Shown here in pieces: positions 2,698 through 19,099 of a DNA stretch of 64,000 bases. The position numbers were made by a program, and so were the translations under genes. Source of the DNA: Leptospiraceae bacterium (GTDB lineage Bacteria; Spirochaetota; Leptospiria; Leptospirales; Leptonemataceae); NCBI GenBank assembly GCA_026005135.1, contig BPKM01000006.1, positions 62,001 to 126,000 of the forward strand, given 5' to 3'. Each line of letters opens with the position of its first letter. Positions within the stretch are counted from its first letter, which is position 1. The notes under the pieces are model-generated. The model searched no databases, was not told the origin of the DNA, and was given only the letters and a program-made list of their open reading frames with translations.

Positions 2698-4074
2698 GTG
2701 CTGGCAGTTGATGAACATTCTCCCTCCTTTCAAAAGGAAGCAATTGAGTTTTTATTAAAAAGGATATTAGATTCTCTAAAAATAGATAGTAGTAAAAAAT
2801 ATAATTTATTTCATCAAATTAGACAATATTTAGACGAAAATCATATCAATAGCATAGAGTCGCTTTTACAGAATTCCTATACTATTGCTCAGATTTTACA
2901 TATAAAACCAGAAAGTTTTAACGAAGTTATCCAGAAGAATTATTTTAAAATTATACAATATCTAAAAAAACAAAAAGAAACATATAATATTTTTTTAACA
3001 GATGAAAAGCAAAATTTGATTGAAATAATTTCTAAATATATATTCCCGGCTGATTTGTCTTTAGCTTATTTTCAACAAGAAGATTATTATTATGTTTTAA
3101 ATTTCCCCTCAAAAAAGATTATAGATGCAACAGTAGATTCCTATAAAAATGCTATTGAAAGACAGCAAAATAATGAAAACCTGCAAGAAAAAAAAGTAAG
3201 TAATCATATCATTTCAGAAGAAATATCAATAATACAAGAAATATTACAAAAATTTCCAGATATATATGTTTCTAAAAATTTATCCTTAGAACTGGATTCT
3301 GTATTGAATCAAAATTTTACTATGGAAAGTGCAATAAAAGAAAAACAAGATATAAAACAAATAAATACAAGCATTATTGACGACAATCATTCTATTATAG
3401 AAGAAATTCTTAATACATTTTCTGATATATTACCTGTTTCTGTCGATTTACAGGAATTAATAAATCAGGAAGAAATAGAATCAAATCAAATAAATCAATC
3501 AAATGATATAAAAAATAAACAGGGAAGTTTTAAAAATAATTTAGTTCTTAAAATACCGTTATCAATTACTGAATATTTACAAATAAGAAAAAAACTACAT
3601 TATTTTAAAATACAAAATGATTCTATTGGTTATCAAAATTTCTTACAGAATGCAGATGAAAAAATAAAAAGTTGTATAGCGATTTTAAATATTTTATCTA
3701 ATGAAAAAACTCCAAATTTTAGCCTCGAACTTTCTATAGATAAAATAGCTCAAAAAGTCAGTTATAGTAAAGAATCATTATTGGAATTATACTATAGAAT
3801 AAAAAAATATAATTTATGTATAGGGTTTGTTAAACAGGCTTCAGAATATTTAAAGAATCATGATAAAAAATTATATGAATATTTTGTTAAAATCTATGAA
3901 CCATTACTGGATTTTATTTCTTTATTAGAAAAAGATAATGAAGACTTTTTTATGGAAAAAAATATAGATAAAAATTTAAAATTATTATTGATTTCTGTAC
4001 AAGATGAAAATGATAGGCATAAATTACATATTTTTTTAAAGAATTTTATATATAAAATTCGTAATTATTTATAG
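2698..4074 (+). CDS. Hypothetical protein, about 458 aa
   Basis: Not recognised. The reading frame begins at a GTG; there is no strong RBS and the true start could lie a few codons later. The protein is Lys/Ile/Asn/Gln-rich and mostly predicted helical. It contains two similar segments around residues 175-195 (EEISIIQEILQKFPDIYV) and 225-245 (NHSIIEEILNTFSDILPV), suggesting an internal repeat. It has no signal peptide or membrane segment. It lies directly before the tRNA pair that opens the ribosomal block, separated by about 105 bases of AT-rich DNA. Confidence 0.55.
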   Translation: MLAVDEHSPSFQKEAIEFLLKRILDSLKIDSSKKYNLFHQIRQYLDENHINSIESLLQNSYTIAQILHIKPESFNEVIQKNYFKIIQYLKKQKETYNIFLTDEKQNLIEIISKYIFPADLSLAYFQQEDYYYVLNFPSKKIIDATVDSYKNAIERQQNNENLQEKKVSNHIISEEISIIQEILQKFPDIYVSKNLSLELDSVLNQNFTMESAIKEKQDIKQINTSIIDDNHSIIEEILNTFSDILPVSVDLQELINQEEIESNQINQSNDIKNKQGSFKNNLVLKIPLSITEYLQIRKKLHYFKIQNDSIGYQNFLQNADEKIKSCIAILNILSNEKTPNFSLELSIDKIAQKVSYSKESLLELYYRIKKYNLCIGFVKQASEYLKNHDKKLYEYFVKIYEPLLDFISLLEKDNEDFFMEKNIDKNLKLLLISVQDENDRHKLHIFLKNFIYKIRNYL

Positions 4075-6266: not shown

Positions 6267-6313
6267 AGATATTATTTAAAAATTAAATGTTTTGTTAAGA
6301 TATAATAATAGTT

Positions 6314-6582
6314 GTAGCTGAATTTTACACAGCATCAACTAATAAAGGGATTGGGAGGGAGGGAAAAAATCCGTTGGGTTTACTCAACGGTAACACCAAA
6401 AAAAGGTGGGCAAGGAAATCCGACGCTGGGCTATGCACAGCGTCAACTCAAGGAGTGTAAAGGGAGGTGGGTGGGCAAGGAAACCGACGCTGGGCTTTGC
6501 ACAGCGTCAACTCAAGGAGTGTAAAGGGAGGTGGGTGGGCAAGGAAATCGACGCTGGGCTTTGCACAGCGTCAACTCTAATG
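6314..6582 (+). repeat. GC-rich 64-bp hairpin repeats in the rplA-rplJ intergenic leader
   Basis: The 326-base gap before rplJ is filled with about five repeat units. Three are almost identical with a 64-base period: GACGCTG/CAGCGTC stems start at 6422, 6486 and 6550, each with a nine-base loop (GGCTATGCA or GGCTTTGCA). They are joined by a purine/G-rich linker (AGGGAGGTGGGTGGGCAAGG). Two degenerate units lie upstream: a perfect 6-bp CCGTTG/CAACGG hairpin at 6371-6390 and a partly paired copy at 6314. The change of both stem arms in the 6371 unit suggests the hairpin is maintained. It is far richer in G+C than its surroundings and occupies the place of the usual L10 leader. Confidence 0.9.
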
Positions 6583-6592
6583 GAGAATAGAT

Positions 6593-7135
6593 ATGCCATC
6601 AAAAAGAAATATACAATTATTAGAAGAGATAAATAAAATATTAGATGAAAAACCAAATATAGTAATGACTACATATACGGGATTAACGGTTGAACAGTTA
6701 ACAGAGCTAAGAAATAAAATAAGAGAAAAAAATGGAACTTTAAAAGTTGTAAAAAATAATCTTTTTAAGATTGCTTTAAAAAATTCTGGAAAGCATGAAT
6801 TTGAAGAAAAATCAAAAGAAATAGAGAAAACAATTGTAGGACCTATAGCAGTAGCTTTTGCAGGAGAAGAATTGCCAGCAATTGCAAAAATTCTTGTAGA
6901 AGAAAGTAAGAAAGAAGAGAAAATACAATTAAAAGGCGGATATTTTGAAGGAAAATTCTTTGATCAAAAAGAGATTAAAAATTTAGCTGGATTACCAACA
7001 AAAGAAGAATTATTAACGATTATTGCTCGAGGATTAAATACGCCAGCTCAAAAAATTGCTATTGGAATTAATGAAATTATGGCTAAATTAGCTAGAGGAA
7101 TTAAAGCAGTAGCAGAAAAAAATAATAAAACATAA
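6593..7135 (+). CDS. rplJ: 50S ribosomal protein L10
   Basis: 180 residues. The N-terminal rRNA-binding domain has TTYTGLTVEQLTELR and LKVVKNNLFKIAL. The C-terminal helix (after about residue 135) binds L7/L12 dimers. A TGGAG RBS sits 7 bases before the ATG, just after the last hairpin of the GC-rich repeat array. In many bacteria L10 bound to L12 represses this operon through a structured leader. Here that leader is replaced by the repeats, so how the gene is controlled is open. Confidence 0.97.
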   Translation: MPSKRNIQLLEEINKILDEKPNIVMTTYTGLTVEQLTELRNKIREKNGTLKVVKNNLFKIALKNSGKHEFEEKSKEIEKTIVGPIAVAFAGEELPAIAKILVEESKKEEKIQLKGGYFEGKFFDQKEIKNLAGLPTKEELLTIIARGLNTPAQKIAIGINEIMAKLARGIKAVAEKNNKT

Positions 7136-7841: not shown

Positions 7842-10800
7842 ATGGCTACAAAAAATTTACAGGATAATCAAAAATTAGTACCACGAAAAAAAATTATAAA
7901 TTTGGGGAAAATTACAAACTATGATTTAATTCCAGATTTAATTGCAATACAATTTAAATCTTATAATGATTTTTTACAATTAGATGTAGATCCGAAGAAA
8001 AGAGAAAATAAAGGTTTAGAACAAGTTTTTCAAGAATCATTTCCTATAGAGTCAACAACAGGAGATATTGTTTTAGAGTATGATCATTATATTTTAGGAG
8101 AATGTAAATGGTCTCCCAGAGAATGTAAAAGTAGAGGTATAACATACGGTGCACCACTTAAAGCAGTATTACGTGTTGTAAATAACGATACTGGAGAAAT
8201 ACGCGAGCAAGAAGTGTATTTTGGAGAAATACCTTTAATGACTCCCAATGGAACATTTATTATTAATGGTGCAGAGCGAGTAGTAGTTTCTCAATTACAT
8301 CGTTCCCCCTGGGATCTTCTTTTTTGAAGAAAAAGATAAAGGGATATTTACAGCTAGAATCATACCATACAAAGGTTCTTGGATAGAGATTGAGGTTGAT
8401 CAAAAAGAAATTTTATATGTGAAAATCGATAAGAAAAAAAGAATACCAGCTACAATATTTTTACGTTCTTTAATAGCAGAAAAAGGTACAGATGAAGAAA
8501 TATTAAAAATATTTTACGAAACAGAAAAAGTAAACATAAAAAAATTAAGAAAAAATCAGATAAATCAAATTCTAAATAGAAGAGTAGCTGAAGATATAAT
8601 TGAACCAGAAAATAACGAAATAATTATGCATGCAGGCGAAAAAATTGATGAGGATGTTTTTAATATTCTAAAAGAAAGAAAAATAGAAGAAATAGAAATT
8701 TTAAAATTCCCAAATGATAAAGATGATACATTATTAATTAATACATTAGAAAAAGACGGAGTAAAAAATAAAGAAGAAGCAGTAATGAAATTTATAGAAT
8801 ATCTAAGAGGGGATGGTTATGAATATGAAGACGCTCTAACATTATTAGAATCAGTGTTTTTTGATGAAAAGAACTATGATTTATCTCCTGTTGGAAGATT
8901 TAAAATCAATAATAAATTTAGATTTATTAATCCTAAAGACTTTGAAAACGTTTCTGACAGAGTTCTCCGAAAAATTGATATAATAGAAACATTTAAATAT
9001 TTTATAAGACTTCTTAATGAAATAGAAGGATATAATGTTGATGATATTGATCATCTTGGAAATAGAAGAATCAGAAGCGTAGGGGAATTATTAGCGAATC
9101 AATTAAAATCTGGATTTGCTAAAATGGAAAGAGTTATAAAGGAAAGAATGAATTCTGCAGAAAAAGATACAATAACTCCTCAATCTCTTGTATCACCAAA
9201 ACCAATCACAAGTGCTATTAATGATTTTTTTGGATTAGGACAATTATCTCAATTTATGGATCAGACTAATCCTTTATCCGAAACCACACATAAAAGACGT
9301 TTAAATGCTTTAGGACCAGGAGGACTTAATAGAGAACGAGCAGGTTTTGAAGTTCGTGATATTCATTTTAGCCATTATGGTAGAATGTGCCCTATTGAAA
9401 CACCAGAAGGTCAGAATATTGGTTTAATTGTTTCAATGAGTACGCTTGCTAGGGTAAATGAATATGGATTCTTAGAAACACCCTATAGAAAAGTAATTAA
9501 AGAAAGAGATAAGAATGGTAAGATTACGAAAGTTTATGTCTCTGATGAAATAGAATATATGACAGCTGATGTTGAAGAACATTATGTAATTGCTCAGGCT
9601 AATGCTCCATTAAACGAAGATGGAACTTTTAAGAATAAACTTGTTGCATGTCGTAAAAAAGATGATTATCCATTAAAACCGCCAGAAGAAATTGATTATA
9701 TGGACATAGCTCCACTACAGGTAGTAAGTGTTTCTACCTCATTAATCCCATTCTTAGAACATGATGATGCTAACAGAGCATTGATGGGTTCTAATATGCA
9801 AAGACAGGCAGTACCCTTACTTTACGAAGAAGAACCATTCGTTGGTACTGGTATGGAGACCAGAGTTGCTTATGATTCGAGGGTATGTATTTTAGCAGAA
9901 GAAGATGGGGTAGTTGTTAAAGTAGATGCAAATCAAATTATTGTTCGGGGAAAAGATGGAAATGAAAGAATTTATAAATTAAGAAAATTTGAAAGAACTA
10001 ATCAAGATACATTATTTAATCATAAACCTGTGGTACATACAATTATATTTGATTATAAAATTTGGAATGATGAAAAGAAAGAATATATTTATCCTAAGGA
10101 AGCAATTGTAAATGCAGTAAAACGAGATAGTATAGAAATAAAAATAAAAATTCAAGAAAGAGAAGAAGTTCTAACATATCCATTAAAATACGAAGATAAA
10201 GAATTTGAACCATTTGTTAAAGAAGGTGATAAAATAAAAAATGGAACTACCTTAGCCGGTCAAAAGGTTTATAAAGAACAAAGAGATTCTAAGGGTTATT
10301 TAAAAAGAAGATCAACCATATTGGCGGAAGGTCCTTCTGTTAATAATGGTCGATTAGCTCTTGGTAAAAATGTTCTTGTTGCATTTATGCCCTGGAATGG
10401 ATATAATTTTGAAGATGCTATTTTAATAAGCGAAAGACTTGTTAGAGATGATGTTTATACTTCTATTCATATTGAAGAATTTGAAGTGCTTGCAAGAGAA
10501 ACAAAATTAGGTCCAGAAGAAATAACAAGGGATATACCAAATATAAGCGATAAAGCATTTAGAGAATTAGATGAACATGGAATTATAAGAATTGGTGCAG
10601 AAGTAAAACCAGGTGATATACTTGTGGGTAAAGTAACTCCGCAGGTAGATAGAGAAATGACACCAGAATATAAGCTCTTACATAGTATTTTTGGAGAAAA
10701 GTCAAGAGATGTAAAAGATACTTCTCTAAGAGTTCCTAATGGAGTAGAAGGTATAGTTGTTGATGTTAAACGATATTCACGGAAAGAAGGAGATGAATTA

Positions 10801-11631
10801 CCATCTGGTGTTGAGGAGATGGTAAAGGTTTATGTGGCAAGTAAAAGAAAATTACAAGTAGGAGATAAAATGGCTGGTCGCCATGGAAATAAAGGTGTTG
10901 TTTCTAAAGTATTACCTATTGAAGATATGCCTTTTATGGAAGATGGTACACCAATAGATATTGTTTTAAATCCCTTAGGAGTTCCTTCTCGGATGAATAT
11001 AGGACAGATTTTAGAAACGATGTTAGGTTTTGCTGCTCATAAATTAAATTATCTTTTCGAAACACCAGTATTTGATGGTGCAACAGAAGAAGATATAAAA
11101 AAATACTTGGAAGAAGCAGGTTTACCATTAGATTGTAAATTTGATTTATATGATGGTAGAACTGGTGAAAAATTTGAAGGAAAGGTATTCTGTGGTTATA
11201 TCTATATGCTAAAATTAGCTCATATGGTTGATGATAAAATGCATGCTCGTTCTACTGGTCCATATTCGTTGGTAACACAACAGCCATTAGGTGGTAAAGC
11301 TCAATTTGGTGGTCAAAGATTAGGAGAAATGGAAGTATGGGCTCTCGAAGCTTATGGTGCTGCTTATAATCTTCAGGAATTATTATCAGTAAAATCTGAT
11401 GATATTTTAGGCAGAAATAGGATCTATGATGCGATTATTAAAGGTATTCATACTATTAAACCAGGTATACCTGAATCCTTTAACGTATTATTACAGGAAT
11501 TAAGAGGTCTAGCATTGGATATGATTATGCTTGATGAAAATGGTAATCCAATAGACCTCGCTGATTTAGATGAAGATTATAGTCGTTCCAGTAAAACAAG
11601 AATTCGTATAGAAACCATAGAGAGAAGCTAA
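7842..11631 (+). CDS. rpoB: RNA polymerase beta subunit, needing a +1 frameshift at codon 156
   Basis: The first frame (7842-8327) encodes 161 residues and stops at TGA. The second frame resumes the conserved protein and runs to 11631. Joined by skipping one base near 8310, the product is about 1,262 residues, in the normal range for a leptospiral-type beta. Across the join the expected [10 protein letters not shown] sequence is restored. Downstream conserved blocks include [44 protein letters not shown] and [20 protein letters not shown]. Both halves look under full constraint, with no other lesion. Either translation shifts frame or the assembly has an inserted C in a five-C run. It is followed by rpoC after 32 bases. 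Confidence 0.95.
8304..8313 (+). other. Putative +1 frameshift site in rpoB
   Basis: Zero-frame codons are TCC CCC TGG G. The expected conserved protein needs Ser-Pro-Gly, obtained by reading CCC, skipping T8310 and reading GGG (equivalently, slipping CCC to CCT). CCC-T belongs to the CC[C/U]-[C/U] class at which tRNA-Pro is known to slip by +1. The zero frame ends at TGA 8325-8327. No Shine-Dalgarno-like stimulator is apparent immediately upstream. Confidence 0.6.
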
Positions 11632-16998: not shown

Positions 16999-19099
16999 AT
17001 GCCAAGAGAAGTGCCATTAGAGCAATATAGAAATATAGGTATCATGGCTCATATTGATGCCGGAAAAACAACAACAACAGAAAGAATTTTATATTATACA
17101 GGAAAAACATATAAAATTGGAGAAGTTCACGAAGGTGCAGCAGAAATGGACTGGATGGAACAAGAAAAAGAAAGAGGAATTACAATTACTTCTGCTGCAA
17201 CAACTACATTCTGGAATGGAATGGAAAAGCAATTCAAACCACATAGAATTAATATAATTGATACTCCAGGGCACGTAGATTTCACCGTAGAAGTAGAAAG
17301 ATCACTTCGTGTTTTAGATGGTTCCATAGCAGTATATGATGGTGTTGCTGGAGTAGAACCACAAACAGAAACAGTATGGAGACAGGCTGATAAATATCAT
17401 GTACCCAGAATTTGTTTTATTAATAAAATGGATAGAATGGGGGCTGATTTCTTTTTCTGTGTAAATAGTATAAAAGAACGACTCGGTGCAAATGCAGTGC
17501 CTATTCAATTACCAATTGGTTCAGAAGCTGATTTTACAGGAGTTGTAGATTTAGTACATAATAGAGCTATTATCTGGACTGGAGAAGAATTAGGAGCAAA
17601 ATTTATATTTCAGGAAATACCAGATGATTTAAAAGAATTAGCAGAAGAATATAGAACAAAATTAATAGAATCTGCTGTAGAATGTGATGATGAATTATTA
17701 GAAAAATATTTAGAAGAAGGCGAAATTACAGTAGAAGAATTAAAAAGAGCAATACGTAAAGGGACACTTGAAAGAAAAATATTCCCAGTATTATGTGGTT
17801 CTGCCTTTAAAAATAAAGGTGTTCAGCCATTATTAGATGCAGTTGTAGAATATTTACCTTCTCCTCTTGGATATTGCACATGTAAAAGGTATTGATCCTA
17901 AAACTGGAGAAGAAATTGAAAGAAAAACAGATGATAATGAACCTTTCTCTGCATTGGCATTTAAGATAATGTCAGATCCTTATGTTGGAAAGTTAACATT
18001 TTTTAGAGTATATTCAGGAACGTTAAAAAAAGGTTCATATATATTTAACTCCACGAAAGGCAAAAAAGAAAGAATAGGACGTCTCTTATTAATGCATGCA
18101 AATCAGAGAGAAGAAATCGATGAAGTAAATGCGGGAGATATCGCAGCGGCAGTAGGACTAAAAGATACAACAACTGGTGATACATTATGTGATGAAAATC
18201 ATCCTATTATATTAGAAAGTATGACATTCCCTGAACCTGTTATTGATTTAGCAATTGAACCATTAACAAGAGCTGATCAGGATAAATTGGGAACTGCTTT
18301 AATGAAATTAGCAGAAGAAGATCCAACTTTTAGAGTTAAAACAGATCATGAAACTGGACAAACAATTATATCTGGAATGGGAGAATTACATTTAGAAATT
18401 ATTGTAGATCGATTAAAAAGAGAGTTCAAAGTAGAAGCAAATGTAGGTAAACCACAAGTAGCATATAGAGAAACGATTACTGGTTCTGCAGAAGTAGAAG
18501 GAAAATATATAAAACAAACAGGTGGTAGAGGTCAATATGGTCATGTCTGGATCCGTGTTAAACCAAATGAGCCAGGGAAAGGATATCAATTTATTAATTC
18601 AATTGTAGGTGGTGTAATACCAAAAGAATATATTCCCGCAGTAGATAAAGGTATACAGGAAGCAATGCAATCAGGTGTTCTTGCAGGATATCCAGTAGTT
18701 GATGTTGTGGTAGAATTATTTGATGGTTCCTACCATGAAGTAGACTCTTCCGAAATGGCATTTAAAGTTGCTGCATCTATGGCATTTAAAGATGCATGTA
18801 AGAAAGCGAATCCAGTATTATTAGAACCTATAATGGATGTAGAAGTAGTAACGCCCGAAGATTATATGGGTGATGTTGTAGGTGATTTAAATAGAAGAAG
18901 AGGAAGAATTTTATCTATGGATCAAAGAGGAAATGCAAGAGTAGTAAAAGCAGAAGTACCTCTTGCAGAAATGTTTGGCTATGCAACAGATTTAAGAAGC
19001 TTTACCCAAGGTAGAGCATCTTATACAATGAAGTTTAAACATTACGAACAAGTACCTGCTAATATTGCAAATGAAATAATCGCGAAAGTATCTGTGTAA
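16999..19099 (+). CDS. fusA: Translation elongation factor G, needing a +1 frameshift at codon 289
   Basis: The first frame (16999-17895) encodes the G domain with [24 protein letters not shown] and NKMDRMGAD, then stops at TGA shortly after the end of the G domain. The second frame picks up domain II ([15 protein letters not shown]) and runs through domains III-V to 19099. Skipping one base at 17866-17869 gives about 699 residues, the normal EF-G length, and restores [11 protein letters not shown]. All later EF-G motifs are intact ([24 protein letters not shown]), so this is not a decayed gene. A terminator overlaps its 3' end. EF-G drives translocation, so a full-length product is required unless a second fusA exists elsewhere. 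Confidence 0.95.
17860..17872 (+). other. Putative +1 frameshift site in fusA
   Basis: Zero-frame codons are TCT CCT CTT GGA T. The conserved Ser-Pro-Leu-Asp is obtained by reading CCT, skipping C17866, then reading TTG GAT. As in rpoB, the shift follows a Ser-Pro codon pair and has the CC[C/U]-[C/U] form, here CCU-C. Skipping a T or the first G gives the same protein, so the exact slip point is not fixed. The zero frame stops at TGA 17893-17895. Confidence 0.6.

Follow-up and report, generated by a model that had tools for sequence, protein, structure and literature searches.

A candidate modular 5'-leader RNA repeat of hairpins and G-rich tracts ahead of rplJ and other genes in one uncultured Leptospiraceae genus

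Several bacterial systems are known in which short repeats or hairpins lie close to genes. BOX elements of Streptococcus pneumoniae (boxA-boxB(n)-boxC) are modular short repeats with variable tandem stem-loops that can alter expression of neighbouring genes, they have boxA and boxC ends and terminal repeats like those of insertion sequences (IS), and they occur in both orientations and, like RUP and SPRITE repeats, also between convergent genes (PMC3049150). The TAACTGA repeats of Beggiatoaceae stand in tandem directly before many start codons, including those of ribosomal protein genes, as unstructured 7-nt units replacing the Shine-Dalgarno (SD) sequence, and a post-transcriptional role has been proposed for them (PMC4679880). 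Repetitive extragenic palindromes and the mosaic elements built from them (REP/BIME) are GC-rich dispersed hairpins associated with a RAYT (Y1) transposase. STAB-SD and 5' stabiliser leaders (cryIIIA, ermC) are single and gene-specific, and carry a hairpin or an SD-like sequence ahead of the true ribosome-binding site (RBS); more generally, bacterial mRNAs are stabilised by leaders that contain 5' hairpins or sequences resembling an RBS (PMC3997798). The Rfam family L10_leader (RF00557) describes a leader positioned before rplJ. Here, we analysed 64,000 nt of a Leptospiraceae bacterium (GCA_026005135.1, contig BPKM01000006.1, positions 62,001 to 126,000; hereafter the window), in which the gap between rplA and rplJ holds an array of GC-rich hairpins that an earlier note on this DNA had singled out.

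We read this rplJ array, with a probability of roughly 0.5, as belonging to a modular 5'-leader RNA element that is specific to the lineage and present in about 17 copies. The repeat family to which it belongs is that of one uncultured Leptospiraceae genus and was previously undescribed, and in the literature on tandem hairpin leaders in spirochaetes we found nothing relevant. The rplA-rplJ gap (6267-6592) is filled by 64-bp units and diverged hairpins, arranged as follows:

6311-6339, + strand: diverged first hairpin GTTGTAGCTGAATTTTACACAGCATCAAC, with inner stem GCTG/CAGC, outer stem GTTG/CAAC, and a 2x2 mismatch
6347-6363, + strand: G-tract GGGATTGGGAGGGAGGG, with four GGG runs, a three-tier G-quadruplex motif
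6371-6390, + strand: type-B hairpin CCGTTGG-GTTTAC-TCAACGG, a subtype common to the recA, acs, and hsp20 leaders
6417-6480, + strand: 64-bp unit 1, with type-A hairpin at 6422-6444, CAACTC, and G-tract GGGAGGTGGGTGGG at 6462-6475
6481-6544, + strand: 64-bp unit 2, with type-A hairpin at 6486-6508 and G-tract at 6526-6539
6545-6592, + strand: unit 3, with type-A hairpin at 6550-6572, CAACTCTAAT, and the SD sequence GGAG at 6582-6585
6593-7135, + strand: rplJ, ribosomal protein L10 (NCBIfam equivalog, 155 bits)

The three near-identical units and two diverged hairpins that had been reported here are real: units 1 and 2 share 97% identity, and dinucleotide shuffles of the window give an expectation of zero matches to the three type-A hairpins. 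GC content rises across the array to 0.50-0.56 from about 0.21-0.30, as the earlier note had also seen, and the pattern GGGN1-4GGGN1-4GGG has three matches in the window, all inside the rplJ leader. Unit 3 keeps its hairpin and then merges into the rplJ RBS, a junction common to nearly all arrays. The unit at 6371 had been described as having changed both arms while still pairing, which is so, but it is not a drifted local unit: its hairpin, with loop GTTTAC and stem GCCGTTG, is a second subtype found in other leaders. From sequence, the module is best read as three parts in succession: a GC-rich stem-loop whose loop is conserved, a tail of the CAACYCTAA type, and a G-rich segment.

A covariance model built from 20 hairpins (R1) found 76 matches at E<=1, at 18 loci, in the genome from which the window comes (3.42 Mb, 18 contigs). 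At 17 of these loci the array is sense to the following gene and reaches a CAACYCTAA-(A)GGAG-type RBS, the exception (C2:259741) being one weak match (E 0.045) that does not adjoin an RBS. The model ended 9-13 nt ahead of the ATG in 14 of 16 automatic measurements, outside which the C3a and C5 arrays were read by eye; for the dctP array this distance is 50 nt, owing to one last G-tract that follows. Genes downstream of arrays belong mostly to core metabolism and maintenance, and comprise rplJ, recA (assigned from sequence by eye), ppdK, hsp20, dctP, the oxidase genes ccoN (a relative of cbb3-type oxidase subunit I, with a weak NCBIfam match) and ccoP (FixP_N), and genes for an acs-type acetate-CoA ligase, an AMP-binding acyl-CoA ligase, a CoA-transferase/hydrolase-like protein, a TetR regulator, Mpo1-like, DUF3332, and lipoprotein-like proteins, and two small proteins. 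Because about 17 genes carry sense arrays just ahead of the RBS, the element seems to serve many genes as a common means of tuning, and not as a switch peculiar to rplJ. The array at the end of C5 (locus positions 8990-9339, minus strand) consists of six near-identical units, followed by an SD sequence and a short open reading frame (ORF) and then by an IS110-like transposase. Separately, the sequence upstream of this array resembles that upstream of the ppdK array on C11.

Beyond this genome, R1 matched one congener only, Leptospiraceae metagenome-assembled genome (MAG) SKW199 (JAOACE01; hereafter G003), with seven matches. The 46 further genomes of the class yielded no copies, and none was found outside the genus among 393 genomes of the phylum, where stricter filters were used and only the best candidates scored, so that weak copies could escape; viral contigs held no copy of the hairpin. 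Matches in a Gemmatales and a Chryseobacterium in the genome collection were single and short, without an array, and were set aside.

These distributions bear on what the array had been taken for, namely a repeat that landed in, or took over, the leader that senses L10/L12. A special L10/L12 autoregulatory leader built from such repeats is now very improbable: position before rplJ is all that speaks for it, the same arrays precede recA, ppdK, ccoP, and others, and no congener has an Rfam L10 leader at rplJ. Specifically, RF00557 gave no match in the window at gathering score, and at E<=5 it matched neither the sequence nor the structure at rplJ in four genomes of the genus, though Rfam sensitivity for this clade was not checked with a positive control; other Rfam families gave no credible match. 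With no L10 leader found in the congeners, and an rplA-rplJ gap of only about 14 bp in one of them (G002) and of about 95 bp in another (G003), there is no sign of a canonical leader having been replaced. The suggestion of a REP-like mobile element fared no better, as Y1 (IS200-like) transposases are absent from all four genomes of the genus (controls positive), and scatter regardless of gene starts is contradicted by the 17 of 18 sense loci that end at an RBS. Hence, with no L10 leader, no Y1/RAYT, no matching Rfam family, and no copy beyond the genus, the element does not qualify as a replacement for an L10 leader, nor as a REP of the generic kind. Dispersed copies unrelated to rplJ, which the earlier note had named as grounds for giving up its reading, do exist, but their sense orientation at RBSs sets them apart from generic repeats.

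The element also differs from the other systems that it resembles, BOX and TAACTGA repeats being akin to it in concept but unlike it in sequence and anatomy. Unlike BOX, the arrays are sense, joined to the RBS, and without defined ends, at least by eye, for no model search for boxA or boxC was made. In contrast to TAACTGA repeats, of which no tandem heptamers occur in the array sequences, the units are structured, 50-66 nt long, and stand before an intact SD sequence. Whereas STAB-SD leaders are single, this is a dispersed repeat family with arrays of G-tracts.

The hairpins, which the earlier note took to be maintained, have stems of 7-8 bp in several types (GACGCTG, GTCGCTG, GTTGCTG, GTCGGCG, GCCGTTG, and GTCGTCG) and two loop types, GGCTTTGCA or GGTTTACT, the second also given as GGTTTAC. 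Among 77 distinct hairpins, pairing holds in 97% of cells and two-sided changes occur at four of eight pairs, with an arm covariation score of 0.365, where shuffles give 0.137 and sliding the partners gives no more than 0.044; the seed hairpin set was likewise scored. This agrees with maintenance, as support and not proof, because the sequences were aligned to fit the structure and the copies share a common origin. A loop conserved while stems vary with compensation would also suit sites for a putative trans-acting RNA-binding regulator that reads GGCUUUGCA or GGUUUAC and governs respiration, carbon, and stress genes as one regulon, and some downstream functions are indeed related (cbb3-type oxidase subunits, acs, ppdK, acyl-CoA ligase, and, in the sister species, etfA). 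We consider such a regulator quite unlikely, given that there are two loop types and that some orthologous leaders have G-tracts without any hairpin. A second small hairpin after the main one (AACYCT...AGRGTT, sometimes with the SD sequence in its loop) was dropped as too weak, since 26 of 68 units reached the cut-off versus 23% of shuffles.

A second strain allowed unit turnover to be followed. Contig BPII01000034.1 (14 kb) is of the same species, at about 97-98% identity to the present genome; it is filed under the Sericytochromatia MAG KatS3mg068 and is thus a misbinned contig in a public MAG. In the second strain, the last hairpin of one array has switched type (GACGCTG to GTCGGCG), and another array has one extra unit and one T/C change present in all six copies. 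Units therefore move, multiply, and homogenise as blocks, and this turnover, together with absence from most of the class, indicates a young, spreading module. In the same comparison, the gene for a small acidic protein that follows the C3a array (locus positions about 3190-3230) differs in frame between strains, with a small length difference near its start.

Such behaviour is also what would be expected of a selfish or neutral repeat which, like BOX, REP, or mitochondrial GC clusters, spreads into leaders by recombination or an unknown enzyme and is tolerated there without a regulatory role. This is a serious rival, if a rather unlikely one, and it gains from the sharing of several hairpin types among unrelated leaders and from the absence of the rplJ array from G003 and G002. 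However, at 17 of 18 loci the array is sense and stops at an RBS, whereas BOX, RUP, and SPRITE repeats also lie between convergent genes, the genus has no Y1 transposase, and orthologous leaders keep the G-tract even where the hairpins are missing. All G003 copies precede RBSs, those of etfA and of PfpI-like, DUF2147-like (by eye), and lipoprotein-like genes, and the G003 recA leader has a diverged hairpin and a G-tract. Hairpin-less G-tracts stand before the RBS of ppdK, an acidic small protein gene, and ahcY in G003 (and, by eye, of a clpP-like and a CBS-domain gene), and before that of ccoP in a further congener (G001). Five of six compared array genes (ppdK, the acidic-protein gene, ccoP, recA, and the lipoprotein gene) thus carry a hairpin and/or G-tract at the equivalent position in a congener, rplJ being the one that does not. 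Model and G-tract pattern together picked out ten G003 leaders, three of them orthologous to the roughly 22 leaders of the present genome, where about 0.08 would be expected if unrelated (our own estimate, assuming about 2700 genes). Sense bias, the junction with the RBS, pairing kept around conserved loops, and recurrence at orthologous genes together argue for a function in the transcript.

The G-rich linkers had been proposed to be G-quadruplex-like, and at the level of pattern this is borne out. Of 40 distinct linkers, 32 have three GGG runs (shuffling them gives an expectation of 0.36), 28 a two-tier G-quadruplex pattern (4.9 expected), and six a three-tier pattern (0.01 expected), these patterns being of four short-looped G-runs on the sense strand of a leader. 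With its G-quadruplex option, ViennaRNA predicted one or more G-quadruplexes in every one of 15 leaders, and three in that of rplJ. With GGG runs far commoner than in shuffled linkers, the linkers are candidate G-quadruplexes, and the G-rich segment is probably a G-quadruplex and/or a tract binding the anti-SD sequence. A separate G-rich motif, TGGGTAGGGGATTGGG, occurs six times on C9:6420-11242, every 0.95-0.98 kb inside a longer repeated block, and twice on C1 (635400 and 637588).

That the linkers are instead SD-like standby sites of the STAB-SD type, with bound 30S subunits stabilising the mRNA, is unlikely in our judgement. GGAGG is present in 18 of the 40 linkers, several read TAAAGGGAGGTG, close to the full anti-SD complement, the simple G003 leaders resemble repeated TCTAA-GGGAGG blocks, and there is precedent (cited in PMC3997798); yet over half of the linkers lack GGAGG and keep GGG-N-GGG-N-GGG with changing spacers. 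Masking of the RBS by the linkers, which the earlier note had raised, is not general: the mean unpaired probability of the SD sequence is 0.70 in array leaders, and in six leaders of the window without arrays it is 0.62. Only at rplJ is the value low, 0.27 for 37 °C, with 0.48 for 55 °C. Artificial RBS-masking G-quadruplexes reduce expression in E. coli (PMC10801317).

Several points weigh against a shared leader element that acts in the transcript. First, hairpins and linkers share descent, so covariation and G-run counts overstate independence, and tails and linkers differ in type. Second, G-quadruplex formation is a prediction only. Third, a sigma-70-like promoter directly upstream is clear for acs and the CoA-transferase-like gene only (99.5th percentile of shuffles), with ccoN at the 95th, and promoter scores upstream of the remaining arrays are no better than shuffles. 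Fourth, being absent at rplJ in the sister species, the array is not essential there. On balance, we infer that the element probably tunes mRNA stability or translation, for which leaders with hairpins or SD-like sequences offer a precedent (PMC3997798). The module would act within the mRNA, its hairpins and G-tracts shielding the leader from ribonucleases and/or holding initiating 30S subunits near the RBS, such that unit number would tune mRNA lifetime and protein output; it may have spread via unit duplication and recombination between leaders, without a dedicated transposase.

Elsewhere in the window, rpoB appears as two ORFs (7842-8327 and 8419-11631), with an apparent frameshift near 8320 that may be an assembly error, and fusA as two overlapping ORFs (16999-17895 and 17867-19099), also with an apparent frameshift.

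Tentatively, and at less than even odds, these arrays may form a new class of leader RNA that acts in cis in bacteria, in which covarying hairpins alternate with G-quadruplex tracts, are copied between genes and strains, and set the expression of unlinked core genes by unit number, a natural modular rheostat in place of gene-specific leaders. The finding bears on natural RNA G-quadruplexes in bacterial leaders, which are little studied, and on the regulatory role of short repeats. One genus supplies natural variants in unit number, hairpin type, presence or absence of hairpins, orthologous leaders, and two strains, and because there are many such variants at recA, ccoN, ccoP, ppdK, and rplJ, copy-number tuning, G-tract function, and module spread are testable in reporters.
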